In this document: positions 5,946 to 54,962 of the stretch, piece after piece
Numbering within the stretch: position 1 is the first letter of the stretch
How the letters are laid out: every line of letters starts with the position of its first letter
NCBI GenBank assembly: GCA_030272155.1
Contig: CP126199.1
Location: forward strand, 1,798,001 to 1,862,000
Length of the DNA stretch: 64,000 nucleotides
Reading direction: 5' to 3'
From: Tetradesmus obliquus
Taxonomy: Eukaryota > Chlorophyta > Chlorophyceae > Sphaeropleales > Scenedesmaceae
The notes under the pieces: model-generated
What the model was told of the DNA's origin: nothing
Databases searched by the model: none
Seen by the model: the letters and a program-made list of their open reading frames with translations, nothing else
Translations under genes and position numbers: made by a program

Positions 5946-6300
5946 CATGCTGCTGCAGCGCCGCCAGTGCCGCCACCGCCTCCGGTATTGCCGGCCGCTT
6001 GCGCCACTCAGCTCGCTGCACGCCAGCGCTAACATGGCAAAGTCAGCTGGCACCACTGCCATGCTCGTCAACATTTGACACTGCAAGAGTGTTACCAGGT
6101 GGTCAGCACGCTCCTTCGAGCCCATCCACTGCTTGGCATCTTGCACACGAAGGCCATCACGCTGCACTGCGCTGCGCAAACCAATCAACCAACATGCTGC
6201 TGCAGCGCAGCCAGTGCTGCAACGACTTCCTTCATGCCTGGCCGCTTGCGCCGCTCCGGCTCGCTCAGGCCAGCGCCAGCATGGCAAAGGCAGCTACCAG
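5946..6300 (-). repeat. Two degenerate copies of the kinase terminal exon edge
   Basis: Minus-strand sequence at about 5946-6055 and 6196-6300 repeats the end of the kinase last exon (6456-6570), including the segment encoding FAMLALACSE and the following basic stretch. The copies carry frame disruptions. They lie tandemly downstream of the true stop codon. Confidence 0.75.
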
Positions 6301-6455
6301 TAGCACAACTGCAGTGCTCCGAGCACGAGTCATCAACATTGCTGAAGCGCAGACGTCATCAGGTGGTCCGCAGGCTGTTTTCAAGCGCATCTTCATCAAA
6401 GGCTTGGCACCCAGCATACGAAGGCCACCATGCTGTACTGCGCTGCGCGAGCCAA

Positions 6456-6650
6456 TCAGCCAACATGCTGCTGCAGAGCAGCCAGTGCCGCCACTACATC
6501 CTTCATGCCTGGCCGCTTGCGCCGCTCAGGCTCGCTGCAGGCCAGCGCCAGCATGGCAAAGCCGGCAGCAACACACGGCGGCCACTGCCCAGCTGTGGGG
6601 TCCAGCATCTTAACAAAGACAGCCGGCACATCAGCAGCAAGTTTTGGCAC

Positions 6651-6682
<32 letters not shown>

Positions 6683-7605
6683 AGGACTGAGCCTCTGTTG
6701 CACGCCCCGTTGCTGCCGGCACCTGTCTGTGGGGTGCTGCTGCTGCTGCTGCTGTACTGCTGGCAGCAGCCCTGCTGGATCCTCCCGACACAGAGGCGAC
6801 TGCTGCTGCGGCCTTGCCATGCACAGCTGCTGCCGCAGTGCTGCTGCTGAAGGGCAGTTGGCGTGGTTTGGCTGGTGCTGCTGTGCGTGAGGCAGCAATG
6901 GTGGCCCAGCTCTTGACCCCACCAGTACCAGCTGCTGCTGCTGGTGTTGCTGCAGCTGCTGCTGCTGTTGCTGCTGCAGCAGCTGCTGCTGCTGGTGTTG
7001 CTGCAGCAGCTGCTGCAGGTGGTGATGTGGTTGCTGCTGCTGCTGCTGCTGCCTGCGAATTGGGCAATGCTGCAGAACGCTGCCCGGTGGCAATAGCATT
7101 GCAGGGCGATATGGTGCTGCTCTTGCTGCTGCTGCTGCCAATGCTGTTGCAGTTGGCCATCACTCCAAGCCACCAGCAGCTAGCTGAACTGTCCGTGCAG
7201 ATGCTGCTGCTTGCTGCTGCCCCACTCAGCGCCGCTGCTGCCACCGCACCAGCAGCTGCAGCATCACCAGCAGCAGGGGCACCAGACCCTACCCCTGCCA
7301 CCAGCACCCCTGCTGCTGCTCCAGGTGCTGCTGCTGCTGCTGCTGCTTCCAGGCTGGCTTCAAATGTTGCCAGGGCTTCAGCTAGCTTCCAGCGCAGCAG
7401 CCGCGGCTTGCAGAAGAGGTCCCCAGTGATCATGTTGACCAAGGTCAGGCCGAAGGAGAAGGTGTCGAGGCCACAGCTGACAACACCATCTGCAGCCAGC
7501 AGCCAGCAGCAGCAGCAGCAGCAGCAACAGCATCAGCAGCAGCATCAGCAGCAGCAGGAGCAGAGTGTAGTTGTTCTGATCAGCTGCATGTGCCTGGTCA
7601 GCCGG

Positions 7606-7644
<39 letters not shown>

Positions 7645-7919
7645 CACACCAGGTTGCAAGCTGCACAACACGCAGTTAACATGCTGTTTCACTGAGATGA
7701 GATCACTGGGACTGGGGCAACATAAACGAAAGTCCTTGATGATCCAGGACAGCAGTGCATCAAAGATGCATGTCTACCAGCAACTCACATATGTTGTACT
7801 CGTCTGGGAGGTAGTAGAAACACCCAGGAGTGCTGGAGCTGGACTGCACATGTGTCAGGTTGACCGGCAGGAAGCGGCTCAGGCCGACATCAGCTAGCCG
7901 AGCCGACAGCTGCAGCCCA

Positions 7920-7950
<31 letters not shown>

Positions 7951-10943: not shown

Positions 10944-12182
10944 TGTGCTGGCAACAGCAGCAACTGCAGGCTGAGGACCCACCCATGACGGCTGCCGCAC
11001 ATACATGCTGTTTGCCCCACTAAAGCTGCTACTGCTGCTGCTGGGCTGTAGCTGCATGCCAGCATTTGCCTGTGGCCCGGGTGGTGCAGCGCCTGGCTGC
11101 TGCTGCTGCTGCTGCCCGTAGCTGCTGCCTAGCCTCTGCTTTGCCAGATCATAGGGCAGAGCATACTGCTGGTTGTACTGCTGACTGCATTGCTGATTGT
11201 ACTGCTGTGAAGCTGTGTGGAACTCCGAGCCAGAGCCAGTAGCATGAGCTGCAGCAGCAGGTGCTCCTGCATATGGAGGCAGCGCAATGCCTCTCAGCTG
11301 CTGCTGCTGCTGCTGCTGGTTGCCAGGCCAGCCTGGGTGCCCCACAGGCGTCTGCTGCTGCTGCTGCTGCTGCTGGGTGGGTGGGCGGTACAATGCATGG
11401 GTAGGGTTCCAGGGAGTGTTAAAGGCGCTTGGAGGCGCACCATAAGCCCCGACAGCTGGCGGCAGGGCGCTGCTGAAGCTGCCACCGCTGCTTGCGCTGC
11501 TCGTGCGCCTGGAGACACTGCCAGGGCTGTAGAACCCTTGTGAAGGGTTCCTGCCGTATGCTCGGCTCGGGGGCAGCCGTGCTGCTGCTGCTGCTGCTGC
11601 TGCTTGGGAGGGACCATATCCAGCAGTATCTGCCTGGTACCCAAAGCTGCTGCTGCTGCTCAGGGCGTTGGCTAGATCGCTAGAGCCGTACTGCTGCTGC
11701 TGCTGTTGCTGCTGCTGCAGGGCTTGCAGCAGCAGCCGCCAGCTGCCTCCCAAGCAGGCATAGTTCCAGCCGGAGTCCTGCAGCGCCTGCAGCTGCTGCT
11801 GTGCGCTGCAGCGCATGCTGTGCACCAGCTCTGCTGCTGCTTGGGGTTGTGTGAAGGCTGTGACTCTGCTGAGCAGCGTCACCTCATCAAACTCCTCTGG
11901 GCTCACTTCTGGCAGAGCGAAGTTGGCTGCAAACAGAACAGACAGACATACGGCAGCAACCAACTTCAGTGAATGAGTAGACATGCAAAGCAGGGCAGGT
12001 ACGGCACACTCAGCCTGCACAGCAACCTGCAGACGCAATTAAGGAGCGACGCACACAAACGGCACACTGCTGCTATAGGCAAGCAGGACGCTGCGAGCAC
12101 TGCTGAGCCCCTGCGGCATCGTCGCCAAGCACTGCTGACGCCTACCCTGCATTTCCAGCAGGTCCTCAGGTGCAGGGCACAG

Positions 12183-12214: not shown

Positions 12215-13494
12215 CCCCCCATCAGCTTTGCCCCTTGCTCCAGCACCCTGCAACCCGTCATGCCTGCGCCCCTGCAAGTCTACCCTTCCAGCAGCCCTCA
12301 AACCCTAGAATCGCCCTGTAAACCTACCCTGCATGTCCAGCAAATCTTCGGGTGCGGGGCACAGCCCCTGCCCGCGGCGCGCCAGCCGCCGGTGCAGCTC
12401 TGCCTCCTCCTCCAGAACCACGGCAGCAGCAATGCGGAAGCCAGCTTCGCGGAAGGGCGCCAGGCGCCGCCGGCGCTCATCACGGCTGACACTGCACAGC
12501 GACAGTCAACCAGCGCAGCCGAAAGCGCTGAGAACACATAGCTGTGTTGCATCAGAGATGGTGTCTTCAAATGAAAGATGGCTAGCAATCTGTTGTTGCA
12601 AGTCTTGATTGGGGCAGTCAAAATGTTGTCCTGAGCCGCCACATCGCCGCCGCCGATTATGACTCAAAGACAACACATAACCCCAGAGACATCATTGTGA
12701 TGTAGCAGGACAACGGCCTTACTTTGAGCGTATGTGGTTGCCTGGCCTGCATGCAGCCGCCTGCAGCAGCCGCTCAAAGACCCCAACACCACACTGCCAC
12801 AGGACACATCATCATACTGCAGCAACCACACATGCTCAATTGGGGCAGTCCAGTATGTGGTTGCCCTGCCTGCACGCAGCCGCCTCCAGCAGCCAGTCAA
12901 AGACAACACAGCCCCGCAGGTACTATTGTTTGGAAGCCTGGAGAGGCTCCTCACCCACTTGCGGCATTTACGAAAGGCACATTTTTGTATGATGCACAAA
13001 TAAAAGACTTACTTGGGGCAGTCCAGTATGTAGTTGCCGGGCCTGGCTGCAGCCGCCTCCAGCAGCCGCTCAAAGACCTCCTCAGCCTGCCCCAGCAGCT
13101 CACTGGTGCGCGCTGCGGAGGCGCCGGCAGCACCGCCGCGCCGCAACCCAGTCACCTGCAGCAGACACAGTACATGGATTGCAGTGTTGGTCTGCAGGTT
13201 ACAGTATTTGGGCTTGTCTGTGTGCCCAGCAGCTCACTGGTACGTGCTGTTGAGGCGCCAGCACCGCCGCCGCGCCTCAGCCCAATCACCTGAAGCACGC
13301 ATGACGCGCATTGCAGTGCACGTGGGGTTGCAAAGACTTGCTGAACAGTGAACGTGCTTGCCGTATGAAGGCAGGCTAAGCAGTCTAGTTCAGGTCAGCC
13401 GCAGCTATGAGGCCCTCTGCTGTTGCAGCTGCCTACAGGCCCTGCTCGCACCTTCATCTGCTTGACTATCGCCTCAGTGCTCAGCAGCAAGTAC

Positions 13495-13526: not shown

Positions 13527-16003
13527 TGGCTGCTGGTGCAGCAGCGTCCTGCTGCCCTGCGGCTGCAGCTTGGCACTCTGCGGAGACATCATGCGGGCTG
13601 CATGGTGCGACTTGCCGCTGCCTGCATGCACACAGCACAACCAGCAACAGCAGCAGCAGCAGCAGCAGCAGTGCAGCAGCAAAAAGTGCAAGTACATCAT
13701 TGTGGCAGCTGACGGAGCATGACTGCTCTTGTCAAATGATGACAGCAGGAGTAAGCAGGCCGCCACACCAGCCACCGACTTGTGCAACACAGCATGGGTT
13801 GCACATCATCAGCGTGCGGCGCGTGACGTGTAATGAGACGCAGCTCGCATGCAGTAAGCGCATGACAGCAAGCCGGCATTAACTAAGAATAAACACATGA
13901 GCAGCCGCACCTGGCAATCCCACCATCATCACCACTGTGCACTGCTCAAACGGCCGCATCACAGGGCCCAGTGCGACAGGCACGTCAGCCGCCACACTTG
14001 CCTGCAGGAGCAGAAGCACAGTCGCAATGGGGGTAGGTCTACCGGAAGGCAGCAGCATGCATGCGCTGCACGCATTGATGAGTTGGATTCTGATCACACT
14101 GGTTGGATGCATGCGGCACAAAGAGCGTTACAGAATGCGAGGCTGTTTCTGCAGCAGCCACAGCTGCCAATGCTGTAGCTGTACATAGCAGCGTTGCTGG
14201 CCCAGATCATTGTCTCCTGATTGAACTGCAGCACCCCATGCAAACACAAAACAACTGTACAGCATAGCATCATGCAGGCAGTATATAAAAAAACAGCCCC
14301 ACCTGCCATGGCAAGCAGCCCAGCCAGCTGCCACTCCACTGCTGCTCCTGCGGCCAACCCCGCGGCTGCTCGCCTTTCAAATTCACAACGACAGCCACAT
14401 TCTTCAGCAGCACGTGCGGGAACAGCGCTGTTGCTGCATTGCTTGGGTCGGGCTTGTGGAAAAGCTCGAAGGCGGTGCCCAGATGCTGGCAGTTGACTGC
14501 AAAGCTGATGCTTGCAATGCTGTTTGGTGCTGCTGGGGACAGGTCAACAAAGCAAGCCACCTCATCGCCCGGTCCGAAGCAGCGGCGCTGGCGGCGGCAG
14601 CAAAACATTTGTTTGCAGGAAGAGGTTTGCAAGAGACGGCATGAGGGGAAGTTTGTTGTGGGGCTTTGTGTACTGAACAGAAAAGCTTGCCGGCACAGCC
14701 GAGGGCAGCCGGCTGCAGCAATATGTGCAGCAGTGTGTACAGGACAGAGAGAAGTGCTGTAACCAAAGCTGTAGGTGCGTCCTGCTGCTGCTGGTTAGCT
14801 TCCTAAATATTGCTAAAGCTCACCTGGTTTGCTGGGTACGGCTGGTACATGTTGCCTGTTGACTTCTTGCCTGTGCTGCCGTAGCCCCAGGACTGGTGGC
14901 TGCCCAGGCTGCCCACATCAACAGACGGCCGTGACACGCCAACCCTGCAAGCAGAACAAGCAGCAGCATGCTTTAAAACCAACAACCAGGTGCATGCAAC
15001 ACTGCTGGTTTTGATGATGCTGGGCTCTAGCCGGCAGCTGTGCCTTCGGCTGTGCCACAAGAGCTGCTGTGCACACAACACGCACGCCGCTGTGGCCACT
15101 GCTGTAGCACTGCTGTAGTCAGCTGCACCGCTGTAGCACTGCTGTAGCACTGCTGTAGTCAGCTGCACCGCTGTAGCACTGCTGTAGCACTGCTGTAGTC
15201 AGCTGCACCGCTGTGGCACTGCTGTAGCACTGCTGTAGTCAGCTGCACCGCTGCCACGCAAGAGGCAAGAGCCTCTTAGAGGCAAGAGGCAGAGTCTGTG
15301 CAACTGCTCCTGCAGCATTCAAACACAGCGCCCCAGCAGCGACCGCCTCTCACACCTGCAGCAGTGGATGGTGTTTGCTGCTGTCTCGTCATCGTTGTAG
15401 GCGTCAGCAGACTCCCCAATATTGGCTGCTGTTGTTTCAAGCGGCTCCAGCACCCTAACAGAGAACCAGAAGCGGCCCGACGTGATGCCATGAGTAGCAC
15501 GCACTCCTGCAAGGGTGATGTGCGATGCAGAAGGCTGCTGTGTTAGGTGGCTAGGTTGAATACAGCGAAGCAACATGTGTGCTTTACATGCTGCACTTGT
15601 CTTGAGTTGGTGATTATGCTCAGGATAGAAGTCAACAGTACGCCATGCCACAAGTGGACGCACTCCTGCAAGTAGAGGTGATGCAGTAGGCTGCTGGGTC
15701 GTGTGGCTGCGGTGAGCCTCGGTTCTTTGTTGGCTGTGCTGTATGCTGTATTTGCAATGATAAGTCATGCACAGTATGCAGGGATTAATCTGGTCGTTTG
15801 CAAGCATAGTGTTTCCAGCTACATGAGGCGTGTTTGGCACCAGTACCCACCACTCCACAAGTAGCCAAAGCCTTCATCACTGAGCGTGCTGGCCACAGGC
15901 CCCTGCAGCTGGCAGTCAAGGCTGCAGTCTGCTGGGTTCAGCAGCACATCTGCCGCCATGTGGCAAGCTGCTGCTGTTGGCGCCATCAAAGACAGCGCTT
16001 TTC
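10302..16003 (-). CDS. hnRNP U-like protein: SPRY plus P-loop (AAA_33) domains, Q/S/A-rich tail
   Basis: Exons in gene order: 16003-15851, 15506-15356, 14944-14824, 14587-14303, 14001-13911, 13621-13452, 13155-13013, 12491-12328, 11926 to 10380 (donor) or 10302 (stop). Every junction is in phase; 936 codons run from the first Met (15986) to the donor. SPRY signatures: GYLWSGVRATHGITSG, SYGYG-like WGYGSTGKKST, GPGDEVACFVDL, ALFPHVLLKNVAV. Then VVMMVGLPGSGKS, a Walker A motif split by an intron inside GLPG/SGKS, followed by EAIVKQMK, NYILDCPNVSRDERRRR and NFALPEVSPEEFDEV. This is the domain order of animal hnRNP U, a nuclear RNA-binding protein; no SAP domain is seen. Residues after about 420 are Gln/Ser/Ala/Tyr-rich, like a prion-like tail. 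The N-terminus may lie further upstream. The alternative 3' end (donor GTAAGT at 10379) would join it to the kinase. Confidence 0.87.
12139..12180 (-). repeat. Copy of hnRNP U-like exon 3' edge
   Basis: Repeats the end of the 12491-12328 exon with its donor: CPAPEDLLEMQ here against CPAPEDLLDMQ in the exon. It sits in the following intron, about 150 bp downstream in gene direction. Confidence 0.8.
12183..12210. repeat. Homopolymer C run (28 bases)
   Basis: An uninterrupted run of C on the + strand (G on the transcribed-sense strand) within an intron of the hnRNP U-like gene. Its length may be unstable in assembly and it could form a G-quadruplex in the transcript. Confidence 0.85.
12720..13292 (-). 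repeat. Partial copies around hnRNP U-like exon 13155-13013
   Basis: Fragments at about 12722-12775, 12840-12905 and 13215-13290 repeat parts of the exon encoding the ERLLEAAAARPGNYILDCP region and its edges. They flank the intact exon on both sides. The exon is the only copy with both splice sites and an open frame. Confidence 0.75.
15101..15250. repeat. 40-bp tandem repeat, about 3.7 units
   Basis: Units start at 15121, 15161 and 15201, with a half unit before and a quarter after. They lie in the intron between the first two SPRY exons after 15506. The core is ctgtagcact. Confidence 0.9.
15640..15685 (-). repeat. Partial copy of SPRY exon start
   Basis: Repeats the acceptor and first bases of the 15506-15356 exon, then diverges. 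It lies in the intron immediately upstream of that exon. Confidence 0.65.
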
Positions 16004-18424: not shown

Positions 18425-21400
18425 AAGAGCAGCGCGGATGCAGGATGCAGAGACATCAGAAGCCGACAGAGTTGCAGTACATGCCAGTGGCAGCCGCTGC
18501 ACCACCTGGCAGCAGCAACAGCAGCAGTGAATGCAGCATGTGAAATTGCAGAGCCAACAGAAGCAAGCAGAGTTGCCGTGAATGCACGTGGATTGAGGAG
18601 GAGCAACGGTGCAGAAGCCGGACAGCATTCAAAGTGCATTCGTGGTCAGCCGGCGGGCGATTGTGCATGTGCAACGCCTCGCATGCGATGAACTCCAGCA
18701 GCAATATGCTGCATCTGCTACGTTTCTAACCATTCCATCACCACAAGCACCAGCAAGCAGCAGCTGCGCGCACCTTGCACTTCATCGTCCGCTGTGATGA
18801 CGGCACCACCATAGCCAGCAGCTCCCCTCCCCGGGTCACGCCAAACACCCTGAACGCCCGCACCGGGTCAAACGCAGCAGCCACCAGCACATCAGGCTGG
18901 CCTGAGAAGCTGCCAGCAGCACTGCTGCTGCTGCTGCTGCTGCTGCTGTCAGTGCTGCCATCTTCACTGCTGCTGATAGATTGGGTCTCAGTGGCATTGC
19001 TGCTGCTGCTGCTGCTGCTGCCGGCTGGACTCAAGGGCTGCGCCAGGCCAGTGCAGGGCCTCACAATGCGGCCACGGCCCCTGTGCATGAGCACGATGAA
19101 TGAGGCGTGGCCTGACTGCACCACCAGCTGGTAGTCGGCTGCAGCAGCAGCAAGCAGCAGCAGCAGCAGCGGACGGCACAGTGGTCATGTGCTGAGAAAG
19201 AAACAACAGGTGACAAGATGGGTCATACACAACGGCGCGACTTGCACGGATCAGCACACAGATAGCTCAGCGTACAAGAATGTTAGGACCAAGTGGAGAG
19301 CGGTCTGCTTTACTCCTTTTGTGCTCGTGGACGGTATCCACACTGAGCGAAGACGTTTGGGGGACTGTATGATCGTGCTGCTGTCAGCAAGGCTGCTTCA
19401 GCATGTACACACAGCATAACCCAGAGCCACAAACACGATCAAACGCAATCTGTTAACAAGACGTATCACCGCATAGCTGCAGCACGGCTGCGCTCACTGT
19501 TGCGGTTCACTGCCAGTGGTACCGCATCCGCATTGAAGCAGCATCAGCTGGAAGCACAAACACACTTGCAGATATGCTGCATTGCTCAACGTCACAGCAT
19601 TACAGCTGCACTCACTGTTGAGGTTCACTGCCAGCGGCGCAGCATTCAAGGGCCGTGACAGCATCAGCCAGCACCACAAACACACTTGCAGACATGATGC
19701 ATCGCTCTGCGCCACAAGCATTACAGCTGCACTCACTGTTGAGGTTCACTGCCAGCCGCGCAGCATCCGCATTGAAAAAGCATCAGCCGGCACCACAAAC
19801 ACACTTGCAGATATGCTGCATCGCTCTGCGTCGCAACATTACAGCGGCACTCACTGTTTAAGTTCACTGCCAGGGGTGCCGCATCCAGGTGCCGTGACAG
19901 CATCATGCGGCCGCTTGGTGGCAGCAGCGCCGCGACTTGGCCAGCTGCATCCAGCAGCAGCAGCATCTTGCGCTGCTTGGCAGACCTGCAGCCGCGTGCA
20001 GCGCAGTGCAATCTGGAGACCTTTTCATAAGGATTGCAGCTGGTGCAGCACCCCTACTGCAACTCGGCGTCAGGGCAACTAACACATACCTTACGAGGAT
20101 CCAACACAGCAAGAGACACACGCACATACTGCAGAGTTCACTCACTTGGTGAAAGCTAGGTGCCGGATGGCCTGCTGGTAGGTCTCTGGAGCGGAGCTGT
20201 TGGCCTGGCGTGCTCTGTCATCTGCAGTTGACGTCATGACGGTGCGGATGCTGCTGACGCCGCTGCCATCTGGCGACCTGTTGGCACCGCAGCAGCAGCA
20301 GCAGCAGCAGCGGCAGCAGCAGCAGCGGCAGCAGCAGCAGCAGCAGCGGCAGCAGCAGCAGCGGCAGCAGCAGCAGCAGCGGCAGCAGCAGCGGCAGCGG
20401 CAGCAGCGGCAGCAGCAGCGGCAGCAGCAGAGAGAGACTTTTACATATGAGCCCCGATACACTGCAGATACGTAATGTCCACGCAGGAGCACTCCCTTCC
20501 GCTGTGGCTTGTCATGTGGCTTGTCATTTGGTACTGCTTTGCTGCAGCACATCAGCAGCGTCACTGCAGCAGCTGACAAACCAGGTGGCACCACCTGCCA
20601 TGCGCAAAATAGAGAAGAGACGTGCTGTTGTGCAGAATGCAGAAGCGCTGCACGCACTTTATGCTTTCATGAGTCACTTCCAGCAGCAGCACCGTGCCCT
20701 GCTGCTGCCCCACAGCCAGCTGTGTAGTGTTGCTGCGCAGCAGGACCGAAGCGAGCGCTGTTGCTGCGCCACCAGCACCTGCAGGCAGCAGCAATCAATC
20801 AAAATAGAAGGAATTGAGCATATTGTTCTTGAGCAGGGCTGCGGTCTGCTGTACGTTTGGCTTATTTCCTGTACGGCTGCCAGCTGCTGTTTGTGCTGTC
20901 TGCATACATCACCGCTGCAGCAAGCCATCCTCTCCTGCAGTCACCACCAGCATCTTCAAATGCTGCAAATATGCTGCGAACCGCCATCAACTGACTGTTT
21001 GAACGAAACAAATCAGCCAGTGTACAGCAGGCGCTGACAGTTGTCATCACCTATGTCATGCTCAAACAGCAAGTGGCCCGCTGCTGTGAAGAAGTACAGC
21101 CGCCCAGCCGCATCCCCAAGCACCGCGAACATGCCACTGCCGCTGTTGGGGCGGTCTGTTATGACATGTGACACTGTTACTTTGCTGTCGGCTGACACGG
21201 CGCTTGAAAATGACCAGTGCTGCGGCCACAGCGGCATGCGGGTGGCGAGTGTACGCTGCAAGTTGCCTGTGGGTGGCACAAATGAACGCATCCCTGCAGT
21301 ACAGAGAAGGAGGATCAGATAACTATTTCAAGTTTAAACCTGTCTGGTCTCATTTGGTGCACTGAACTGTCTAGCACTGGGTCACTGCAGCAGCACTTCC

Positions 21401-22173: not shown

Positions 22174-23202
22174 CTAAGCCAGCTGCAAGCACGGCAGCTG
22201 CATCACGCCTTCAGGGATCACCCGCAGCCGCTGGCAGTTTGTAACAGCCAGCTGAGTCAGCAATGACAGCCCTGCCAGCTCAGCAGGCAGCGCCCACAAG
22301 CCCCCACAGTCACTGATCTCTATCTGCCGCAGCTTCGGCCAAACTATGGTACTAACACTGTTACTAACACTGCCCGAACCCGCCTCGGGCAGCAGCTGCA
22401 GGGCATCACACCCGCACAGCACCAGCTGCTGCAGCTGCTGGCAGTGCAGCAGCGATGCCGGTAGTGCTGCTAGTGAGCTGCATTCATACAAGCTGAGCAG
22501 CTGCAGACTGCTGAGGGATCCTAAGTCGGCTGGCAGCGTGTGAAGCGAGGAGCAGCCGCACAGCACTAGCTGCTGCAGCTTTGGCAGCTGGCAGATGCCC
22601 TCAGGCAGCTGCTGCAGGTCCCTGCAGCCTGCATGGAGTTACAGGGGGTAGAAGGAAGCAGAAAATGGGCAACAGCCTGAGGGTTGACAGTAGCATGCTG
22701 TGTGTGGCAGCGGGCAGATCAAATAGCAGCTGCTACGTCTTGCACCTTGCGTATGTGTTGTCACAACATCACGGTGATGCTGTTGCACCGTCAACTGAGG
22801 TCCGTGTGCAGTTGAGAACAAGTGCATTCAACCCTTGGCTCACACAGAGACCCCATGCATCTGGTGCACATGCAGGCACACACAGCTCCAACAGAGATCT
22901 AGGCGTGCACGCAGTTGCAAAACACATGGAGCAACCGCAATCAGCACCTTCCACGATTCCCTCACCATTCACATGCAGCAGCTCCAAGGCTGCATTGCTG
23001 CTGCCCAAGTCCTCAGGTAGCTCCGCAAGCAATGCACAGTCTGTCACTTTGAGCTGCTGCAGGCTGCTGAGGCCCCCCGCTGCTGCAAACAGCCTGCGCA
23101 GCCCACTGCAGCGCCACAGGCTGATGGCAGTGAGTGACGTCAGGCGAGACAGTGCATCTGGCAGGCAGCGCAGCGACGAGTAGTCTGCAGGTATTTACAG
23201 GT

Positions 23203-23240
<38 letters not shown>

Positions 23241-24934
23241 TGTGAAATGTGGTCGGCAATGCACAACAGCCCACTGCAGCGCCACAGGCTGATGGCATTG
23301 AGTGACGTCAGGCGAGACAGGGTATATGGCAGGCAGCGCAGCGATGGGTAGTCTGCAGGCATTTACAATTGCAGCAGCAGGAGCAACAGCAGGAGCAGCA
23401 GCAGCAGCAGCAGCAGCAATGAAAGTGTGGTTTGCAAGTGCAGAACAGCCTGCGTAGACCACCGCAGCGCCACAGGCTGAGGGCAGTGAGTGACGTCAGG
23501 TGAGACAGCGCATCTGGCAGGCAGCGCAGTGACAGGTAGTCTGCAGGCATTCTCAATTGCAGCAGCAGGAGCAGCAGCAGCAGCAGCAGCAGCAGTGAAA
23601 CGTGGTCGGCAAATGCACAACAGTCCACTGCAGCGCCACAGGCTGAGGGCAGTGAGTGAAGTGAGGCGAGACAGCGAATCTGGTAGGCAGCGCAGCGACG
23701 AGTAGTCTGCAAGCATGTAAAATTGCAACAGTAGCAGGAGAGTATGGTCAGCAGATGCACGTGGCGGCCATCTATCTGCCACAGCAGACGCAGAGTATGG
23801 TCAGCAAGTGCACTGTTAAGGTAAGCCTTGCAGGGTGTGCTGCATCAGTGATGCAGCTGCATGCTAGACCGGCTAACACCAGGGCGCTGATCGACCCCAT
23901 ACAGAAGCCTAGTACTGCATCTATGCAGCCCCTGCCATGCGCAGTTTGAAACCTTGTGTCGCACAAACGTACACGCCCGTGTTCCAAATCACGTACCGAT
24001 GATTGCCAGCTGCTGCAATGCCGGTAGATCACCCAGCCCATCTGGCAGCGGCGCAACTTGATCACATGCCGCCAGCGTCAGCTGCTGCAGCTGCGGCAGA
24101 TCACTGCTGCTGCTGCTGCTGTCGCCCAGCGGCAGCTGCTGCAGTGCTCGTAGCTCACTGAGAAATAGCTGCTGCAGGGAGGGTGGCAGGGCGCTAGGGA
24201 TGTTGACGAGGCACTCGCAGCCGTAAACTGACAGCTGGCGCAGTGAGCTGAGGTGGCAGAGGTGCGGCAGGGCAGCCAGGGAGGGCAGGTCTCCGATCTT
24301 GAGCTCCTGCAAGCAAGCGTAAGACCAAAAGCCCAGATCTTGTAGCACTGATACGCAGTAGCGTAGCAGGTGTCGATGTTGAAAGAATGCAGTTGCTGCA
24401 GCTGCCCCAGCCCCTCAAACGAAGGCAACATACATATGCCCGTGCTGTGCTTCTACACTGCTGCACATAACACACCACAGCATTTGCCTGCTGCTGTATC
24501 TCATGCCTCACCTGCAGGTGCTGCAGCTGCCCCAGCCCCTCTGATGAAGCAATCATACAGATGCCCGTGCTGTGCTTTACACTGCTGCACATCAACACAC
24601 TACACCACTTGCCTGCTGCTGTATGTCCTGCTCCCTGCACTCACCTGTGAGTGCTGCAGCTGCCCCAGGCCCTCAGGGAAAGCTGTCACGCAGACGATCA
24701 TGCTGTGCTTCTTCTGCACTGCTGCACAACAACACTCCCAAGTTCCCTGCTGCTCTGGTTACTGCCTCACCTGCAGGTGCTGCAGCTGCCCCAGCCCCTC
24801 AGGCAGTGCAAACAGCGCACCGCAGCCAGTGATGGTCAGCTGCTGCAGGCCTGTGGCCAGGCTGACACCTAGCGAGGCAGGCAACTCCTGCAGGGAGCGG
24901 CAGAGGCTGATGGACAGCTGCTGCAGGCGCGCCA

Positions 24935-32904: not shown

Positions 32905-32935
<31 letters not shown>

Positions 32936-33160: not shown

Positions 33161-33193
<33 letters not shown>

Positions 33194-33895: not shown

Positions 33896-33947
<52 letters not shown>

Positions 33948-41272: not shown

Positions 41273-43489
41273 GGTGCAGGCATCAAAGGCTCCCCACAGC
41301 GCCCAATGCTCAAGGTGGTGGCCAGCCACCAGCCTCCTTTAGTGTTTGTACAAGAGGCCCCAGATGGCAGCAAGAACTTCACTGGCTTTCTGGTGGACCT
41401 GCTACCGATGCTGCTGGAGACAGCGGGCCTGCCGCTCAACTACTCCATACGCTACATCCCTGTGAGTGCTTTGGGCAGCAGCAGCAGCAGCAGCAGCAGC
41501 AGCTGGCGGCCACTGAGTAGTTGTGCTTAGTTCTCAAGCCAAACAACAGCAGCAGCGTGTTTGTAGCAGTAGGCTGCAGAAGCACCGCCTGAGCAGGACA
41601 GCAGGGCGCAGCTGCATCACATCAGCCTGTTTCATGCCACACAGACGTGGTGCACTGCTGCTGCTGCCGTCCGTCCCAACAAAGTAGCTGTTCCACCCAT
41701 GCCGCAGATCATCTAGCAACTTTTCGCCATGCTTGTGCACCAACCATGCTGCCTCTGGCGGTGCTCCCGGCACCACCCTACAACCTGGCTCCAAACTGCA
41801 CCCGCACCCCGCCCGCATTTGCACACCACATTCAAGCCCTTGCAGGCAGCAGGGGCGCGCTGGCTGGACAATGGCAGCTAAACAGGCATGATGGTGCATT
41901 GCTGCTGCTGCCATCCACCTCAGCAGAGTGAATTCTCACCCATTTTGCACATTGCACAGCATCTTTGCAGCACGCCTGTGCATCAACCACGCTGCCTACA
42001 CACTGTTCAAGGATTGATCTTGCACCCGCACCGCTGCCTGCATCTGCGCCACATTTTTCAAGCCCCTGCAGGCAGCAGGGGGGGGCGGCAGCTGGACAGT
42101 GGCAGCTGGACAGGCATGATGGTGCATTGCTGCTGCTGCCATCCACCTCAGCAGAGCGGATTCTCACACAATTTGCACATCGCACAGCATCTTTGCAGCA
42201 CGCCTGTGCATCAACCACGCTGCCTACACTCTGTTCAAGGATTGATCTTGCACCCGCACCGCTGCCTGCATCTGCGCCACATTTTTCAAGCCCTTGCAGG
42301 CAGCAGGGGGGGCGGCAGCTGGACAGTGGCAGCTGGACAGGCATGATGGTGCATTGCTGCTGCTGCCATCCACCTCAGCAGACGGATTCTCACACAATTT
42401 GCACATCGCACAGCACCTTTACAGCACGCCTGTGCATCAACCACGCTGCCTACACTCTGTTCAAGGATTGATCTTGCACCCGCACCGCTGCCTGCATCTG
42501 CGCCACATTTTTCAAGCCCTTGCAGGCAGCAGGGGGGGCGGCAGCTGGACAGTGGCAGCTGGACAGGCATGATGGTGCATTGCTGCTGCTGCCATCCACC
42601 TCAGCAGACGGATTCTCACACAATTTGCACATCGCACAGCACCTTTACAGCACGCCTGTGCACCAATCACACTGCCTACACTCTGCGCCAAATATTGATC
42701 CTGCACCCGCACCCTGAATTTGCGCCACATTTTCCAAGCCCTTGCAGGCAGCAGGGGGGCGTCAACTTGAGAATGGCAGCTGGACAGGCATGATGGGCGA
42801 GCTAACAAGCGGCAGGGCTGACTTGGCGTTGTACCCCATGACGCTGACAGCGCAGCGCGCCAAGTACATCCAGCACATGCAGCCCTTTCAGGACGGCGGC
42901 TACGGGCTGCTGGTGAAGATGCAGGCGGTCAACACAGGTAAGCGTTCTTTTCTGTGTTGACCAGGTTTTGAAAGCTTTGTGTAGGCGATTGGCAGCGTGA
43001 ACAGCGCGATTTGTAGGTGAGTGGCCTGCTGGTGAAGCAGCATGATGGGCCGGCTGGCAAGCGGCAGGGCTGACCTGGCGTTGTACCCGATGACGCTGAC
43101 AGCGCAGCGCGCAAAATACATCCAGCACACGCAGCCCTTTCAAGATGGGGGGTACGGGCTGCTGGTGATGACGCAGGCGGTCAACACGGGTGAGCGTTCT
43201 GTGTTGACCAGCTTTGAAAACTTTTTGTAGGCGATTGGCAGCCTGAGCAGCATGATTTGCAGGTGAGTGGCCTGCTGGTAAAGCAGCTTATTGGGCCAGC
43301 TGACAAGCGGCAGGGCTGACCTGGCGTTGTACCCGATGACGCTGACAGCGCAGCGCGCAAATACATCCAGCACACGCAGCCCTTTCAGGACGGCGGCTAC
43401 GGGCTGCTGGTGAAGACGCAGGCAGTCAACACAGGTGAGGCAGCAGGATGTATAGGCTTTATCAGCTGTAGCGTGTAAGCTGCTGCTGA

Positions 43490-43522
<33 letters not shown>

Positions 43523-43697
43523 CGCAGGCTACTCCTTCCTGCTGCCCCTCACGTGGCAGGTGTGGCTGCTGTTCCTCATGGCAATGCTGCTGCTGCTGAT
43601 ACTGCTGCTGCTGCTGCTGTCGCAGGCTACTCCTTCCTGCTGCCCTTCACGTGGCAGGTGTGGCTGCTGTTCCTCATGGCAATGCTGCTGCTGCTGA

Positions 43698-43739
<42 letters not shown>

Positions 43740-45516
43740 CGCAGGCTACTCCTTCCTGCTGCCCTTCACGTGGCAGGTGTGGCTGCTGTTCCTCATGGCA
43801 ATGCTGGCTGTGGTGCTGCTGCTCACTGGCATGGACCTGACCACACGCAAGGCCAGGCATGCAGCACTTGAGAAGGTGGATAGCCGCAAGGTGCAGCGCT
43901 CGCGCAAGAGAGGTGTGTGTGTGTGAGTGGTTGCAAGAGAGGTGCGTGTGTGTGAGTGGTTGCAAGAGAGGTGTGTGTGTGTGAGTGGTTGCAAGAGAGG
44001 TGCGTGTGTGTGAGTGGTTGTAAGAGAGGTGCGTGTGTGTGAGTAGTTGCAAGAGAGGTGCGTGTGTGTGAGTGGTTGCAAGAGAGGTGCGTGTGTGTGA
44101 GTGGTTGTAAGAGAGGTGCGTGTGTGTGAGTGGTTGCAAGAGAGGTGCGTGTGTGTGAGTAGTTGCAAGAGAGGTGCGTGTGTGTGAGTGGTTGCAAGAG
44201 AGGTGTGTGTGTGTGAGTGGTTGTAAGAGAGGTGCGTGTGTGTGAGTGGTTGCAAGAGAGGTGCGTGTGTGTGAGTGGTTGCAAGAGAGGTGCGTGTGTG
44301 TGAGTGGTTGCAAGAGAGGTGCGTGTGTGTGAGTGGTTGCAAGAGAGGTGCGTGTGTGTGAGTGGTTGCAAGAGAGGTGTGTGTGTGTGAGTGGTTGCAA
44401 GAGAGGTGCGTGTGTGTGAGTGGTTGTAAGAGAGGTGCGTGTGTGTGAGTGGTTGCAAGAGAGGTGCGTGTGTGTGAGTAGTTGCAAGAGAGGTGCGTGT
44501 GTGTGAGTGGTTGCAAGAGAGGTGTGTGTGTGTGTGTGTGTGAGTGGTTGCAAGAGAGGTGCGTGTGTGTGAGTAGTTGCAAGAGAGGTGCGTGTGTGTG
44601 AGTGGTTGCAAGAGAGGTGTGTGTGTGTGAGTGGTTGCAACGCAGCGCAGCGCAGCGCGGTGCGTGCGGTTGGTAACTGGCAGCTACTACTTTGCCATCA
44701 CTTGTGCAGGGCGCAGGTAGCTTGCTGCTAGGCAATGCAGAAGTGACTTCAACAGCTTGTGGGCGCAGCTGGTGTAGCCTGAAATCTAAAAGCCGCAATG
44801 GCTTGATGCCTGATTGTTGCTGCGCGCAGACAAGCTGATGGGCCACGTGATTGAGACGATCATGATGGCGGCCAAAACACAACGCATCACATGTGTTTTT
44901 TTGTCTGGTTGCTGCACACACGCATGCAGACAAGCTGATGGGCCACGCCATCGAGACGATCATGATGGCGGTCAACAGCGGCGCCGCGCCTGCCTCCCGC
45001 AGCCTGGGTGTGAAGCTGCTCTTCATTGCCTGGGCCATCTTCAGCGTCATCATGCTGGCAGCCTACACCGGTGAGCGCCTTCAACCACTACATCGCCAAT
45101 CATACAATGTAAAGCTATTGTATGTCTATCATGTACATCGCCTGGGCCATCTTCAGCGTCATCATGCTGGCGGCATACACCGTTGAGCTCGAACATCAAG
45201 CTTTTTTGACCAGAACCTAATTGTATTTATACAGCCAAAGTCTTTATGCACGCCTATCTCTCATGCCGCGCCGCTGCTGCTGCTAGTGTTGCCGCTGCTG
45301 CTGCTGCCCTTCTTCAGCCAACCTAACTGCCAACCTCACCGTCAACCAGTTGGCAGTGGAAATCGGCTCCCTGGCTGACCTGACGCAACCCTCACTCTTG
45401 CTGCTGCTGCTGCTGCTGCTGTTGCCTGCCTGCCCCCAACCAACCTGACTGCCAACCTCACCGTCAACCTGGCAGTGCAGATCGGCTCCCTAGCTGACCT
45501 GGCGCAATCCTCACTC

Positions 45517-45551
<35 letters not shown>

Positions 45552-45618
45552 TGCCCCCAGCCAACCTAACTGCCAACCTCACCGTCAACCAGCTGGCAGC
45601 GCAGATGGGCTCTTACTC

Positions 45619-45665
<47 letters not shown>

Positions 45666-47909
45666 TTTCTGCCTGCCCCCAGCCAACCTAACTGCCAACC
45701 TCACCGTCAACCAGCTGGCGGTGCAAATCGGCTCCCTGGCTGATCTGGCGCAATCCTCAGCCTTTTTTGGAGTGCCGGCAGACAGCAGCGTGTCAAGTTA
45801 CTTCACTAGCAGCCTCGACAAAGCAGCGCTGCTGCTGCGGCCGCGCATGATCGAGTACAAAGACACAGACGATGGCGTGGCGGATGTGCGGCGCGGCAAG
45901 ATTGCGGCGTTTGTTACGGACCACATCAACGCGCTGTACTTCACTCAGGTGCGTGGGAAAGAATGAGAGGACGATGCAGCTCTATTTGTTTAGCTGAGTG
46001 TGCATGCGGTGCACACACAAGCGAAGTGACAACCAGCTGCTGGAAATCCGTCAACTTAGCAGCCTGTCTTGCTGCTTTTGCGCCTCGCTGCTTCGCTGCC
46101 GCAATGCATCCCTTGATCATGAGATCTGCCCCATGCTTGGCGCTGTCCCCTACCTTTGGTGCGGCCGTGTGACCTGGCGCTGGGCTCAGAGGTGGTAATT
46201 ACCAATACCAATACTTTTACCAAAGTACGGAATGGACCCACCTCAGGCACAAGCCCAGCGAGCCGATCTACCGCTCGTGAGGTTAAATCTGGCAGCCTGG
46301 TGCTTGCGCTGCTTATCACTGAACGGCATTCCTTCTCATCTTATCACCTGTTGACTGCTGATGTGTACAGGTACGGCTGTGTGACCTGGCGCTGGGCTCG
46401 GAGGTGGTTGGCTCCGGCAGCCTGGTGCTTGCGCTGCCTGCTTCTCGTATTGCACCGCTTCTCACTATAATACCTGTTGACTGCTGTTGTGTCTAGGTGC
46501 GGCTGTGTGATCTGGCGCTGGGCTCCGAGGTGGTTGGCTCCGGCAGCTTGGTGCAACTCCTGCTTTCTTTGTGCCTCAGTGCCCCCAAAGACTGCATGTT
46601 GCACTTCTCTCACTTGCCTCCCCTCCGCCACCTTAGGTGAAGCCGTGTGACCTAGCGCTGGGCAGCGAGGTGGTTGGCTCCGGCAGCCTGGTGCTGGGGC
46701 TGCATCCCAACTCCACCATACGCGGCAAACTGGACGATGCGATGCTGAAGCTTGCAGAGTCGGGGCAGGTCCCAGGTGGGCAGGATTCTGTGCTGCCTTA
46801 GTGCTGTGGTATGTTATTATGTTACGTCGCATATGTTACATACTCATGAGCAGCTGGACGACGCAATGCTCAACCTGGCAGCGCCAGAGGTGCCCCGCAA
46901 GCATTCTAGGGCACGAGGGTACAGCATGCAAGGCAGTTTGTTGTGCATCCAGCTCTGCAGCTTGCTCTGCCGCATGCTAGCAGCCTTGCTTCTGACGGTG
47001 GTTTGTCCAAACCCTTCTGCATTTTAACCGCATGCACAGACCTGCGGCGCAAGTGGTTCCAAGATAACAATGAGTGTGACAGCGAAGCAACAACTGAGGG
47101 AGGGAGGCTCAGCATGGCTCAGGCCTGGAGCGTATTTGTCATCCCAGCGGTTGGGGCAGCAGCCGGCATCCTCATTGCTGCAGCAGAGGTGTTCTACTAC
47201 AACAAGATGTTTGTAGGTGAGGCGTGAGAATGCGCATGCGCGTGCTACACACGTGGAAGCTCCCAGCGCAACCATCAGTTAGTATGCATCAGGCCTCTTG
47301 ACTGCAGCACCAGCAGCAGTGCGTTCAGTGATTTGCACCCAGCAGTCGTTGTTGCCTGACCTCGCACAGCAGTCACGTTTGCCGGTTCCTACCCTTGCAC
47401 AAGGCTAGAAACCGAACACTCATCCTCTGGGACACATGCTGCTGCTGCTGCTGCTGCTGCAGGCGTCCAATCGCTGCGCCAGGACCTGAACACGATGGGC
47501 GCCAGGGTGGTGCTGTCGAGGCGGCTGCATCGACAGCAACGCAGCATATCAAAGTCGCTGCGCTTTGGGTGAGAACGGCTGCGATGCTTCATGCGTGCGG
47601 GCTTTGTGCTGCGCACTACCATCTGTGGTAAACAGCTCATGAGCTTTCCAGACATGCTGTTCTTCTTGACATGGACAGTCTAGCATGAAAAAAGCAAGGA
47701 GCTGTGCTGCTGGACGCCGTATGCCTTTATTCTTTGTAAGGCATTTTCATTTCCTGCTGAATGGGCTGCTGTTGCTGCTGCAGGTCTGCCACAGATCACA
47801 CGTTTGATGTTGAGAGCCCTGTGCCGGATGCTGACGATGCAAACAGCCAAAAGTCCGCTGCTGACAAAGCTGCACCCCGCGATGGCAGCGGCAGCGTAAG
47901 CAGCAGCGT

Positions 47910-50119: not shown

Positions 50120-52159
50120 ATGGCAGTCCTGCGCGTGCTTGCCGCGCACCGGCCGCCCCTCTGTTTCATCGAAGGCGGCGAAAACGGCAGCACACCCATT
50201 TTCTCAGGCTACCTCATCGAGCTGCTGCCTACATTACTCAACCAAGCAAACCTGCAGATCGTCTACGAGCTGACTGCTTTTGCCGGCAGCGGCGGCGGCA
50301 TGCAAGCAAATGGCAGCTGGACAGGTGTCATGGGGGAGTTAGTAGCTGGCCGCACGGATTTAGCGCTGTTTCCGCTGACGCTGACGTCGCAGCGCGCGCA
50401 GTACATCCAGGCAACGCCGCCTTTCATGGATGATGGGTACGGCATTCTGGTCAAGACGCGGCGGCTGGACTCAGGTGAGGAAGCAAGGATTGGTCCTTGT
50501 GCGGCTGCCGGCAACATAGCAGTGCAGCAGAGTTGTCATTGTGCGTGATGTGCGGAGGCAGTGCTATGAGGACCTCAGGGCGTGCTGCTCAAGCAGGTGC
50601 TGCTGCTGCTGCTGCTGCTGCAGGCTACTCTTTTCTGCTGCCGTATACTGGCTTTACTTGGGCCATGCTCATGGTGGCACTAGTGTCCATCATGCTGCTG
50701 CTGCTGCATGTTGTCTTGCCTGCAGGCTACTCCTTTCTGCTGCCCTTCACAGGGTTCACCTGGGCCATGCTCATGGTGGCACTAGTTTCCATCATGCTGC
50801 TGCTGACGCTGCTGCTGCTGCTGCTGCTGCTGCACTCTTGCCTGCAGGCTACTCCTTTCTGCTGCCCTTCACAGGCTTTACCTGGGCCATGCTCATGGTG
50901 GCACTAGTGTCCATCATGCTGCTGCTGACGCTGCTGCTGCTGCTGACACTGCTGCTGCTGCTGCTGTGTGTTGCTGCAGGCTACTCTTTTCTGCTGCCTT
51001 TCACCGGTTTCACCTGGGCCATGCTCATGGTGGCACTTGTGTCCATCATGCTGCTGCTGACGCTGCTGGACGCTGTCACCCGCAATGCGCGGCTGCGTGC
51101 ATTTGAACGGCTGCATGGCACACAGAAGCTGACAAGAAAGCGGCGAGGTGAGGCTGGCAAAACATTCTGTGCATTCGCTGCTGTGCACGCCTGGTAACGC
51201 AGCTGTGTGAAGATGCAGCACGATGTGGTGTGGCTGTGCAAGAAAACACAGATTTTGGCACCATGGGGAGCACGTCAGCTGACATGCCGTGCAGCAGCAC
51301 AGCGAGAAAGCACGTGCAACAGTCGATGCTGTGCGTGCACCTGTGCTGCCGCTGGCTCACCGGCTGCTGGCACTCTTTTACGCACGTCAGCAGCTGCATG
51401 ATGGCTGTCCCCACACCTCACTTGCCTGCTTGTTCACATGTGTGTCTGGACTGTTTTGCGCTTCAGCATCTTGTGTTGTGAAGACGCCAAGGTCATGAAC
51501 CATGCCATTGAGAGCATCTTGATGGCTGTCTGCGCACTTCAGTTGCCTGCTTGTTCACATGTGTGTCTGGACTGTTTTGTGCTTCTGCATTTGGTTTTCT
51601 GCAGACGCCAAGGTCGTGAACCACGCGATAGAGAGCATCATGATGGCAGTTGGCAACGGTGCCGCCCCCACCAGCCGCAGCTGGGCGGTCAAGATCGTGT
51701 ACATCGCGTGGGCGGTGTTCTGCGTCATCATGCTGGCGGCTTACACCGTGAGTTCCAAGTTCAAAGTGTTTGTGCAACATTTGGTATGAAGTTCTCAGTG
51801 TCTCAGACAGCTGGGCAGTGAAGATTGTGTACATTGCATGGGCGGTGTTCTGCGTCATCATGCTGGCGGCTTACACCGTAAGTGTTATTGTCTTCTTTTT
51901 TGGCGAGATGTCGAAGTTCCCAGTGCTGCAGGCAGCTGTGCGGTGAAAATCGTGTTCTGCGCAACCATGCTGGCTGCTTACATAGTAAGTGTGCATTGTG
52001 GGAGTTGTTTTGTGGGGCACTCACGGGTCACCAACATCTGCACCCGCACACCACAGGACTTCTGTTGACACGCTGCGTGCCTTCACAAACTGAACGCCCT
52101 GCTGCTGCTGCTGCTGCTGCCGCCGCCGCCGCCGCTGCTGCTGCTGCTGCCACTGTTGC

Positions 52160-52240
<81 letters not shown>

Positions 52241-53215
52241 TGCTGCTGCTGCTGCAGGCCAACCTCACAGCCAACATGACTGTGAGCCAGCTGGGAGTGT
52301 CATTCAAAACGCTGCAGGACCTGGCACAGAGCAGGCTGCCGTTTGGCGTGCCGGCAGACAGCAGCATTGCAGCTTACTTCTCTAGCAGCGCTGACCAGGC
52401 AGCGCGGCTGCTGCAGCTCAAAATGGTGAGCGGCATTTGCCTCCTGGTGTTGGCAAGTAGGATGGTTTTGCATTCAATTGGAATCAGACGAGGTGGCAAC
52501 ACAAGGGGACGGGAAATCAGGGCGGTTGATGCGTTGGCATTTGATACCTCTCTGCACAGCACAGCAAGCAAACAGCAGAAGCAGAAGCAGCCGCAGCTTG
52601 GTTGGTTGGCGTGACCCACATTATGTCGACTCCCTCTTGTCTTGCCGCTGCCGCTGCCGCTGTTGCCGCCGCCGTTGCTGCTGCTGCTGCTGCTGCTGTA
52701 ATGCAGCGTGAGTTCAAATCTACTGCTGATGGGGCGGAGGCTGTCAGGGAAGAGAAGATTTCCGCCTTCATAAATGACTATGCAACAGTGCAGTACTTCA
52801 CACAGGTGGGCAGTCGGGCAGGCTGCAATTGTCGGTTTTGTTAAGCACTCAGGCTGCTGTTGGTGCTGTTTTGCACGTGGTGCCTGTGCGAACGCGCTGT
52901 GTTTCTGCGCAGGTCATGTCAGCGTGACGAATGCACGGTTGCAGAGCAGCGTGAGCGACACGTTTTGCGCACAACGGCCGTCACGCCGCACACACAGCAT
53001 GCGGTACGCCGCAACACAAGTCACCTAGTGTCAGCAGCATGCATCACTCAGTGCAACATACCTCATGCCACGTCCACCTCAAAGTATAACATCACAAAAA
53101 CAAACAAACAAACAATCCATCCATATGCTGCTGCAGGAACCTCCGTGTGACCTGGCGCTGTCCCTTGAAACCATTGGCAGCGGGCAGCTGGTGCTAGGGC
53201 TGCCGCGCAACTCAC

Positions 53216-53302
<87 letters not shown>

Positions 53303-53628
53303 AGGAGCCGCCGTGTGACCTGGCGCTTTCCCCGGAAACAATCGGCAGCGGGCAGCTGGTGCTGGGACTGCCCCGCAACTCCACGCTGCTGCCGAAACTC
53401 AGCGCAGCGCTGCTGCAGCTGAGCGAAGCGGGATACATGGCAGGTGGGTGATGCTGCTGCTGCTGGTGCTGTGCAAATTGCGCTGCATGGGGTCAATGTG
53501 GCTGGCCTGTTGCCTGTTACGGAATGACAGCGGTGCTGCAGTGCAGCTGAGGACCCAGCTTGCCCATTGCATGGGTCTAAAGCACCACACTGTCCTGTGC
53601 ACAACACTTCCGCTGCCGCCATCGCCGC

Positions 53629-53667
<39 letters not shown>

Positions 53668-53840
53668 AGAGCTGCGCCGCAAGCGGTTTGTGGACTCCAG
53701 CCGCTGCACATGTTCTATCTCACACAGAATCTCACACTGTACTGCTGCTGCTGCTACTGCTGCGTCAGAGCTGCGCCGCAAGTGGTTTGTGGACTCCAGC
53801 CGCTGCACATGAACTGCGTCTCACACGGAATCTCACACTG

Positions 53841-53877
<37 letters not shown>

Positions 53878-54962
53878 ATCACAGAGCTGCGCCGCAAGTG
53901 GTTTGTGGACTCCAGCCGCTGCAGCAGTGACACCTCAGCATCATCCGGCAGCGGGCAGCTGCACCTCAACCAGGCTTGGAGCGTGTTCATGATTGTGGCT
54001 GGAGGCGCTGCGGTTGGGCTGCTGGCTGCTGCTGGGGAGATGCTGTACTACCGGCGCCTGTACACACGTAAGTTTCAGAGTTATTGACATCAGAGTTGTA
54101 CACACGTAAGTTTCAGAGTTATTGACATCAGAGTTGTAAGTACAAAGCTGTGCTGCAATTGCTGAGTCGTTCTTGCCATACATGCTGCCCAGCTGCTGCT
54201 GCCCATGCTGTGCGCTCAACTTGCTGGTGTCGCTGCTGCTACAGGCATGTTTGCGCTAAGGCAGGATGTGTCAGTGATGGGCTACGGTGCTTTGCATTGC
54301 ACTCACTGCTGGTGTGACGTGTTGCTGCAGGCATGTTTGCGCTGAGGCAGGATGTGTCGCTGATGGGCTGCTGTGCTTGACGCCATGCTCAGTGGCTGGT
54401 GCTTCTTGCTGCTGCAGGCATGTTTGCGCTGAGGCAGGATGTGTCAGTGATGGGCGTCCGTGCAGCTGTCAAGAAGCGCGTGACGTCTGGGCGGCACATC
54501 ATGCCCAACGTCAGCATGCACTCAGACAGGAGTGGGGTGTCCAATGTTACTGGGCCGACAAGCTTCAAGTCTGTGCGGTTCAGGTGCGCGCGTTGTTATG
54601 ACAATAGCTTGGCTGTCGCCGCAGAAAGGCCCGGCACATGTGGGCCTCTGACAGCAGAAATGCATCCATGCATGCATTTGCGAGTGCCGGAACAGTCGAT
54701 GACCAGCTTAAACTTGCATGCCTTGTTGATGCTTCTGCAGCAGCAGGGTTGTTGTGAGGGCTTGCGCCTTGCCAATGACGCTGTCTTGGACAGCAATTGC
54801 CAGCTTGCAATTTCGCAGCAATGCAGGCACTGCACCAATCCGCCTGCAGACCTGTCACCACCTGTCCCTGCCACTGCTGCTGCTGCTGCTGCTGTCACTC
54901 CACGCTTGCAGCGACTCCCTGGAGAGGTCAGCGGACGTTGACCGCTGGGCAAGCGCATCATC

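Follow-up and report, generated by a model that had tools for sequence, protein, structure and literature searches.

The window studied here is a stretch of 64,000 nucleotides from Tetradesmus obliquus (bases 1,798,001-1,862,000 of contig 9; the genome comprises 104.66 Mb in 17 contigs). Its introns contain extra, mostly partial copies of neighboring exon edges with the splice site still attached. Such copies had been described in a sequence-only reading of this DNA; they are confirmed in the window, and they extend to 30 other loci of the same genome. The reading had also held that the copies grade from near identical to barely recognizable. Indeed, every grade occurs, from 100% identity to barely alike, so that the duplication looks continuous. 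The gene at 58-64 kb, said to lack exon-edge copies, shows no local direct pair in the self-comparison; only simple repeats and a 27-bp unit at 63196-63247 (Tandem Repeats Finder) are found there.

The copies are seen most clearly in the pyruvate dehydrogenase (PDH) E2 gene, as homology identifies its exons. The working exon of the acyltransferase domain (34420-34755, plus strand), identified by Pfam 2-oxoacid_dh, by homologs and by the gene finder, has both edges copied into the flanking introns. Its first 40 bp, together with a CAG acceptor, recur at 34287-34329 (plus strand), 130 bp upstream of the working edge, with 93% identity and 3 silent and 0 replacing differences. Its last 75 bp, together with the donor GTG, recur at 34910-34987 (plus strand), 229 bp downstream of the working edge, with 97% identity and 2 silent and 0 replacing differences. 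All five differences between the two copies and the working exon are therefore silent. For the intronic copies in general, an assembly error was rejected as the source because they differ by patterned silent changes. The intron stretch between the acceptor copy and the working exon (34330-34416, plus strand) lay within a query that matched only its own genomic place. The gap sequences beside the two E2 copies, the only two gaps searched, match nothing else in the genome; a mobile-element origin and copying from another intron were both rejected on this ground.

Other repeats in the E2 gene are of a different kind. The likenesses 31894/32968 and 32408/33004 correspond, as judged by eye, to the two lipoyl domains of the gene, and homologs carry PF00364. 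A tandem duplication of period 238 at 35595-36154 (plus strand; repeat search and self-comparison) covers the E2 coding end and the 3' untranslated region (UTR) and includes no splice edge. The copy at 35835, previously taken for an exon edge with its splice site, is thus the end of the coding sequence and 3' UTR. The other named places are present as described (5946-6561; 15480/15640, 75% alike; 34287/34417 and 34681/34910 in PDH E2), as is the pair 35595/35833 itself. Among the matches listed, the protein closest to the window PDH E2 is from Scenedesmus sp. NREL 46B-D3, with 72% identity.

Beyond the window, we analyzed 30 random stretches of the genome, 10 kb each and 300 kb in total (L001-L030). 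Exons were predicted with a self-trained simple exon-intron model, trained on the window and 20 of the 10-kb stretches (L001-L020). The hold-out, L021-L030, was fetched later and decoded by the gene finder without retraining. Two earlier trainings, which drifted to tiny exons and CAG repeats, were discarded, and the third was used throughout. The gene finder learned the splice consensus CAG/GTGAG for donors and TGCAG/G for acceptors (the slash marks the exon edge). It found the E2 exons of 32408-34755, truncated the last exon of that gene and called one copy as an exon. All exon edges are gene-finder predictions without RNA support, those of PDH E2 being additionally backed by protein homology. 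Simple repeats were masked before self-comparison, and repeat pairs less than 2.5 kb apart are referred to as local. Exons under the gene-finder score cut-off, exon overlaps under 25-30 bp and redundant pairs of one array were filtered before counting. The masking of short-period repeats hid 6552 of the 64,000 window bases; CAG/CTG runs are very numerous, and some of them are Ala or Gln runs in coding exons. A leucine-rich repeat open frame at 471-2447 is built of 72-bp units, and these in-frame repeats are part of the protein. Window positions 1-1700, where leucine-rich repeats lie within an exon, were excluded from the endpoint, exon/noncoding-pair, silent/replacing and whole/partial-copy counts and kept in the exon-edge overlap test.

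Self-comparison of the window, the check proposed with the earlier reading, gave 66 direct local pairs and 1 inverted pair (38217-38541/39118-39413, 79% over 325 columns); 11 pairs are more than 2.5 kb apart. The 30 random loci contain 187 direct and 12 inverted local pairs, and an inverted local copy was found for 0 of 441 splice-edge segments. Local direct copies account for 16.6% of the window bases, 7.5% of L001-L020 and 12.7% of L021-L030, which places the window above average. The offset of the best pair is 98-250 bp in 55 of 66 arrays.

Of the 25 window arrays, 22 have an exon edge within the copied DNA, compared with 13.9 under random shifts of arrays inside each locus (P=0.0004). The same was observed in L001-L020 (29/41, null 21.0, P=0.0034) and in the hold-out (31/35, null 19.2, with 0 of 5000 shifts as high); pooled over the 30 loci, 60 of 76 arrays contain an edge (null 40.3). 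A direct local copy exists for 64 of 441 splice-edge segments (14.5%), 94 of 1034 noncoding segments (9.1%) and 19 of 265 exon-interior segments. The rate for edge segments is thus 1.6 times that of noncoding segments and twice that of exon interiors; relative to noncoding duplications, the enrichment is genuine, though modest. Of 529 well-scored splice edges in the random loci, 41 have an intron-side copy. Among exon/noncoding pairs, 40 of 44 include an exon edge and 4 lie within an exon only (null 16.7), the pattern required of single-junction duplications that join exon and intron. The copies are close and direct, with one breakpoint in the exon and one in the intron, as tandem duplication produces them.

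It is conceivable that nothing special happens at exon edges: random local duplications would be seen there because exons are short, and one copy would be neutral. Noncoding segments are indeed copied too (94 of 1034), and the enrichment is about twofold or less. However, the edge, endpoint and silent-excess tests were each replicated in the hold-out. This contradicts the explanation unless the gene models are badly wrong, and we give it hardly any credence.

The copied stretches tend to stop at the splice site. In 53 of 564 cases, their ends fall 0-9 bp past a predicted splice edge (null 7.9, sd 2.8), and in the hold-out in 21 of 191 (null 2.9). Among the exon/noncoding pairs, 21 of 44 end between 1 bp short of the edge and 9 bp past it (null 5.5). 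The adjoining intron flank is still alike in 26 of 55 testable cases, compared with about 48 expected if the exon and intron parts had decayed in step; the 55 include a few edges of predicted exons that are copies themselves (e.g., 34946-34984). Copies that are direct and close, with flanks alike at this frequency, are what tandem duplication across the boundary leaves. The earlier proposal of intron growth by local duplication is supported to this extent, whereas the idea of the exon edge as the target of copying is weakened by the modest ratios given above.

We compared silent and replacing differences between exons and copies outside predicted exons, leaving out pairs in which more than one tenth of the other copy was predicted exon. 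Under the null, the copy is neutral and the exon fully constrained, and base- and CpG-specific rates are taken from noncoding pairs. Copies with at least 85% identity show 112 silent and 55 replacing differences in 32 pairs (null 73.5 silent, sd 6.4), and the hold-out shows 41 and 24 in 10 pairs (null 28.7, P=0.00125). Below 85% identity there is no silent excess (48 silent and 81 replacing in 11 pairs). For all identities, 160 of 296 differences in 43 pairs are silent (null mean 126.7). Eight Pfam-supported genes, namely those of formate-tetrahydrofolate (THF) ligase, ketoacyl synthase, PDH E1, PDH E2, an amino acid transporter, a VTT protein and two glycosyltransferases, contain 19 copies with 59 silent and 32 replacing differences (P=5e-5 against 0.44); Pfam was searched for these eight genes only, after hand-editing of the gene models. 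The dN/dS of copies with at least 85% identity is roughly 0.3, with a silent-site share near 0.29 and an assumed exon dN/dS of 0.1. These copies therefore carry a coding-like constraint. The splice AG or GT is kept in 35 of 38 copies more than 85% alike and in 8 of 9 copies below 85%. The formate-THF ligase gene (L027, minus strand, 238-7102) has five predicted exons with edge or whole-exon copies, and one of its edges occurs in five copies spaced 114-144 bp apart.

Such constraint may indicate that the copies are used, either as redundant or mutually exclusive exons or as alternative edges, both directly selected. The silent excess at 85% identity and above argues for this, as do the retained dinucleotides (35/38) and a mean site strength nearly that of the working site. 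Whole-exon copies exist in 6 cases, with 21 silent and 7 replacing differences, for example as three copies of a formate-THF ligase exon. A complementary splice site is found at the exon-internal end in 12 of 34 copies, a weak excess over 21.6%, and splice sites on both sides in 5 of 33, compared with 5.5%. However, 34 of the 40 copies at this level of identity are partial, and only the remaining 6 comprise a whole exon. Open frames stop with the copies: in 14 acceptor and 13 donor cases, their medians are as in control noncoding DNA. The disappearance of the silent excess below 85% is something that use alone need not predict, and several of the affected genes encode ordinary enzymes. Read-through use was rejected, as the offset is no multiple of three in 44 of 66 arrays and the frames end with the copies. 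The related suggestion that the copies supply cryptic exons is only partly sustained: the retained AG and GT make it possible, but the frames beyond the copies are no longer than in control noncoding DNA. Overall, we consider direct use unlikely, though worth keeping in mind.

The copies also exchange sequence with each other. In eight arrays of 4-5 copies with at least two informative sites each, 18 of the 28 site pairs fit no tree. In simulations without exchange, the share of incompatible pairs averages 3.5%, and 0 of 2000 reach the proportion 18/28; 11 of 2000 runs reach 18 incompatible pairs, through having more informative sites. In a five-copy array of L020, three kinds of intron flank appear by eye to be shuffled among similar exon ends. 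This is the exchange expected of concerted evolution by gene conversion or unequal exchange.

A history of diverged alleles or hybridization could produce part of this picture. Unequal exchange between homologous chromosomes would have put the edge of the other allele into the intron, and the silent differences would predate the duplication. This accounts for silent-only differences beside unlike introns, and a related strain is described as likely diploid (PMC7955037). Conversely, silent divergence per pair ranges from about 0.02 to above 1 (few sites each), which is wide for alleles, and the first junction would still need a misplaced break. We find this origin quite improbable.

We propose instead that local tandem duplication across exon-intron boundaries is followed by recombination between spare and working edges, an explanation to which we give about an even chance. 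Short direct duplications arise at many genomic places, and often one breakpoint lies in an exon and the other in the neighboring intron. Such a duplication would keep the working exon in place and leave a spare edge with its splice site in the intron, which would thereby grow. Through gene conversion or unequal exchange, spare and working edges would then go on swapping sequence. Since either copying or recombination could carry a defective spare edge into the working position, replacing and frameshift changes would be purged by selection from spares still similar enough to recombine. The intron parts, without such protection, would decay, and the remaining likeness would stop at the splice consensus. 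Once identity falls below about 85%, exchange would cease and the spare edge would decay freely; recombination should fall below this level, which would explain the missing silent excess there. The end at the splice site would then be a footprint of selection, produced by faster loss of the intron part, rather than of splice-directed copying, and recombination load would be the cause of the constraint. The tests show the duplication, its association with edges, the stop at splice sites, the coding-like constraint and the exchange between copies; the load and the faster loss of the intron part are inferred. We also favor exchange as the likely cause of the unlike flanks, because exchange between copies has independent support. 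A stronger form of the proposal, toward which we incline less, holds that the genome maintains a standing reserve of spare edges recombining with working edges, and that recombination load, not use, keeps non-expressed partial copies under protein-coding selection; this is possible but rather doubtful.

Several observations weigh against the proposed duplication and recombination. The 26 of 55 alike flanks of the wider set are well under the 48 expected for joint decay. Of 52 copies with a likeness ending at the splice edge, 7 have a recognizable intron flank (p<0.05; 2.6 expected by chance); among those with at least 90% identity, only 4 of 24 do. Many exon parts have been refreshed, then, or flanks replaced, or copies pasted without a flank. 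About half of the wider set clearly shows an intron part duplicated in tandem, whereas the edge-ended set mostly does not, and plain decay of a synchronous tandem duplication was rejected as the sole account because the flanks are too unlike. A sharp end at the splice site can reflect slower decay of the exon part; the flank data leave this choice undecided. The constraint is partial, with about two thirds of the differences silent, and several window copies outside E2 show no silent excess (silent to replacing 2:3, 2:5 and 1:3 in the receptor-like genes; 4:5 at 23.1 kb). As the splice dinucleotides are kept equally below and above 85% identity, their retention is no marker of constraint. Furthermore, the simulations without exchange use divergences and trees chosen by us, the load step hinges on presumed exchange rates and population size, and the exon edges are predicted rather than observed.

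The flank data also bear on splice-site-directed copying, in which template switching or an RNA intermediate would copy the edge up to the splice consensus and paste it into the intron. The clustering of ends at the splice consensus is consistent with such a process, as is the rarity of alike flanks among edge-ended copies, even at 97-100% exon identity. In contrast, the flanks of the wider set are often alike, and many copies extend 2-9 bp into the intron, which rules out spliced mRNA as their template. Because TGCAG occurs equally often in exons and in noncoding DNA, microhomology alone fails to pick the edge; it was rejected as an explanation by itself. The lack of inverted copies among the 441 edge segments is a further point against directed copying, which we regard as improbable.

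Further arrays are distributed along the window. A tandem duplication with an offset of about 246 lies at 5946-6561; its predicted exon part is 91% alike, with 7 silent and 2 replacing differences, and its intron part has more indels. On the minus strand, a predicted exon end with its donor (12323-12364) has a copy at 12141-12182 (86%; 5 silent and 1 replacing), and array alignment reveals three copies of another exon end with its donor at 12730-13092. An old copy pair at 15480-15715, also on the minus strand, is 75% alike; over 27 exon bases it shows 5 replacing differences and no silent one. Two four-copy arrays follow on this strand, one of period 118 across a predicted donor (19479-19911, from the repeat search) and one of a predicted exon start with a TGCAG acceptor (23084-23724; spacing 166-188, about 92% alike).

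Two tandem paralogous genes, called receptors in the earlier reading, lie at 42742-46778 and 50280-53446; one exon of these paralogs gives a below-cutoff match to Lig_chan. The first carries, on the plus strand, a long array with predicted acceptor and donor edges (41648-43439; periods 226 and 252), three copies of a predicted exon start (45348-45759, self-comparison) and four copies of another (46146-46703; spacing 126-206). A 29-bp minisatellite of about 25 copies with 94% matches (43904-44640) adjoins these arrays. The second contains a four-copy array in which no exon edge was called (50622-51048; period 102-132). An array at 51392-51999 (plus strand, self-comparison) includes three copies of a predicted exon end; the first two of these, compared by eye, show silent differences and diverge right past the donor. 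Three copies of a predicted exon start with a TACAG or TGCAG acceptor are found at 54214-54463 (plus strand; spacing 86-87). Both paralogs seemingly repeat the same exon start (46.1-46.7 kb and 53.1-53.4 kb), which makes their arrays comparable. Outside the window, noncoding arrays without predicted exons occur at L014:8271-10000 (offset 312 bp) and L012:1-1146 (191 bp), both about 90% alike.

The sequence-only reading knew of no described process with this signature, which is partly incorrect. Tandem duplication across an intron-exon boundary, with duplication of the splice signals, is reported in PMC4974935. That report concerns a single case that made a new intron, whereas the spare edges described here, one to four per intron, lie in existing introns of several genes, and those more than 85% alike are constrained and exchange sequence. 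In the Rogers model, as cited there, a new intron would form between two AGGT copies at a site where relatives have no intron; the present copies lie within predicted introns. Pace et al. (2009; PMC2671141) describe repair-mediated duplication by capture of nearby DNA in vertebrates, giving short, closely linked duplications, some with exons and splice sites, as here. Among the donors of their 824 duplications are 4 partial exon/intron segments, 2 exons with introns and 2 full exons. They discuss two complete exons, one of them inverted, and for both Ka/Ks does not differ from 1; in our sample, 0 of 441 edge segments have an inverted local copy, and a silent excess is seen in copies more than 85% alike. 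Tandem exon duplication and mutually exclusive exons, reported at about 2% in human, 0.08% in fly and 0.06% in worm (PMC9013439), also place exon copies, some unannotated, in introns beside the exon; the present copies are mostly partial and of one edge. By methods that differ from those of PMC9013439, a local direct copy with at least 80% identity was found for 5.6% of the exonic bases in the 30 random loci, or for 2.5% if only copies outside predicted exons are counted. Introners, reported from many eukaryotes (PMC9860276), resemble the present case in that duplication makes intron content; no shared family of that type was found with the two gap stretches searched, both of which are unique in the genome. 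Thus, as far as these sources state, boundary-crossing tandem duplication, unconstrained linked exon copies and broad tandem exon duplication are already described. No description of widespread constrained partial exon copies in introns was found among the titles and abstract openings listed, which cover only part of the matching papers and mostly exclude subscription journals.

The copies open one source of intron growth to observation and testing: they are of every age, so that successive stages of growth can be followed against the working exon as an internal reference. If the load explanation is correct, the dN/dS near 0.3 of the copies would be a measure of population size multiplied by exchange rate (about 1 by a simple haploid formula), and coding-like conservation would be no proof of expression, which is a warning for gene annotation. 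The spare edges have splice sites of near full strength, and some were called as exons by the gene finder used here. Spare edges are thus a likely source of error for gene finders and for the spliced alignment of reads in this lineage.

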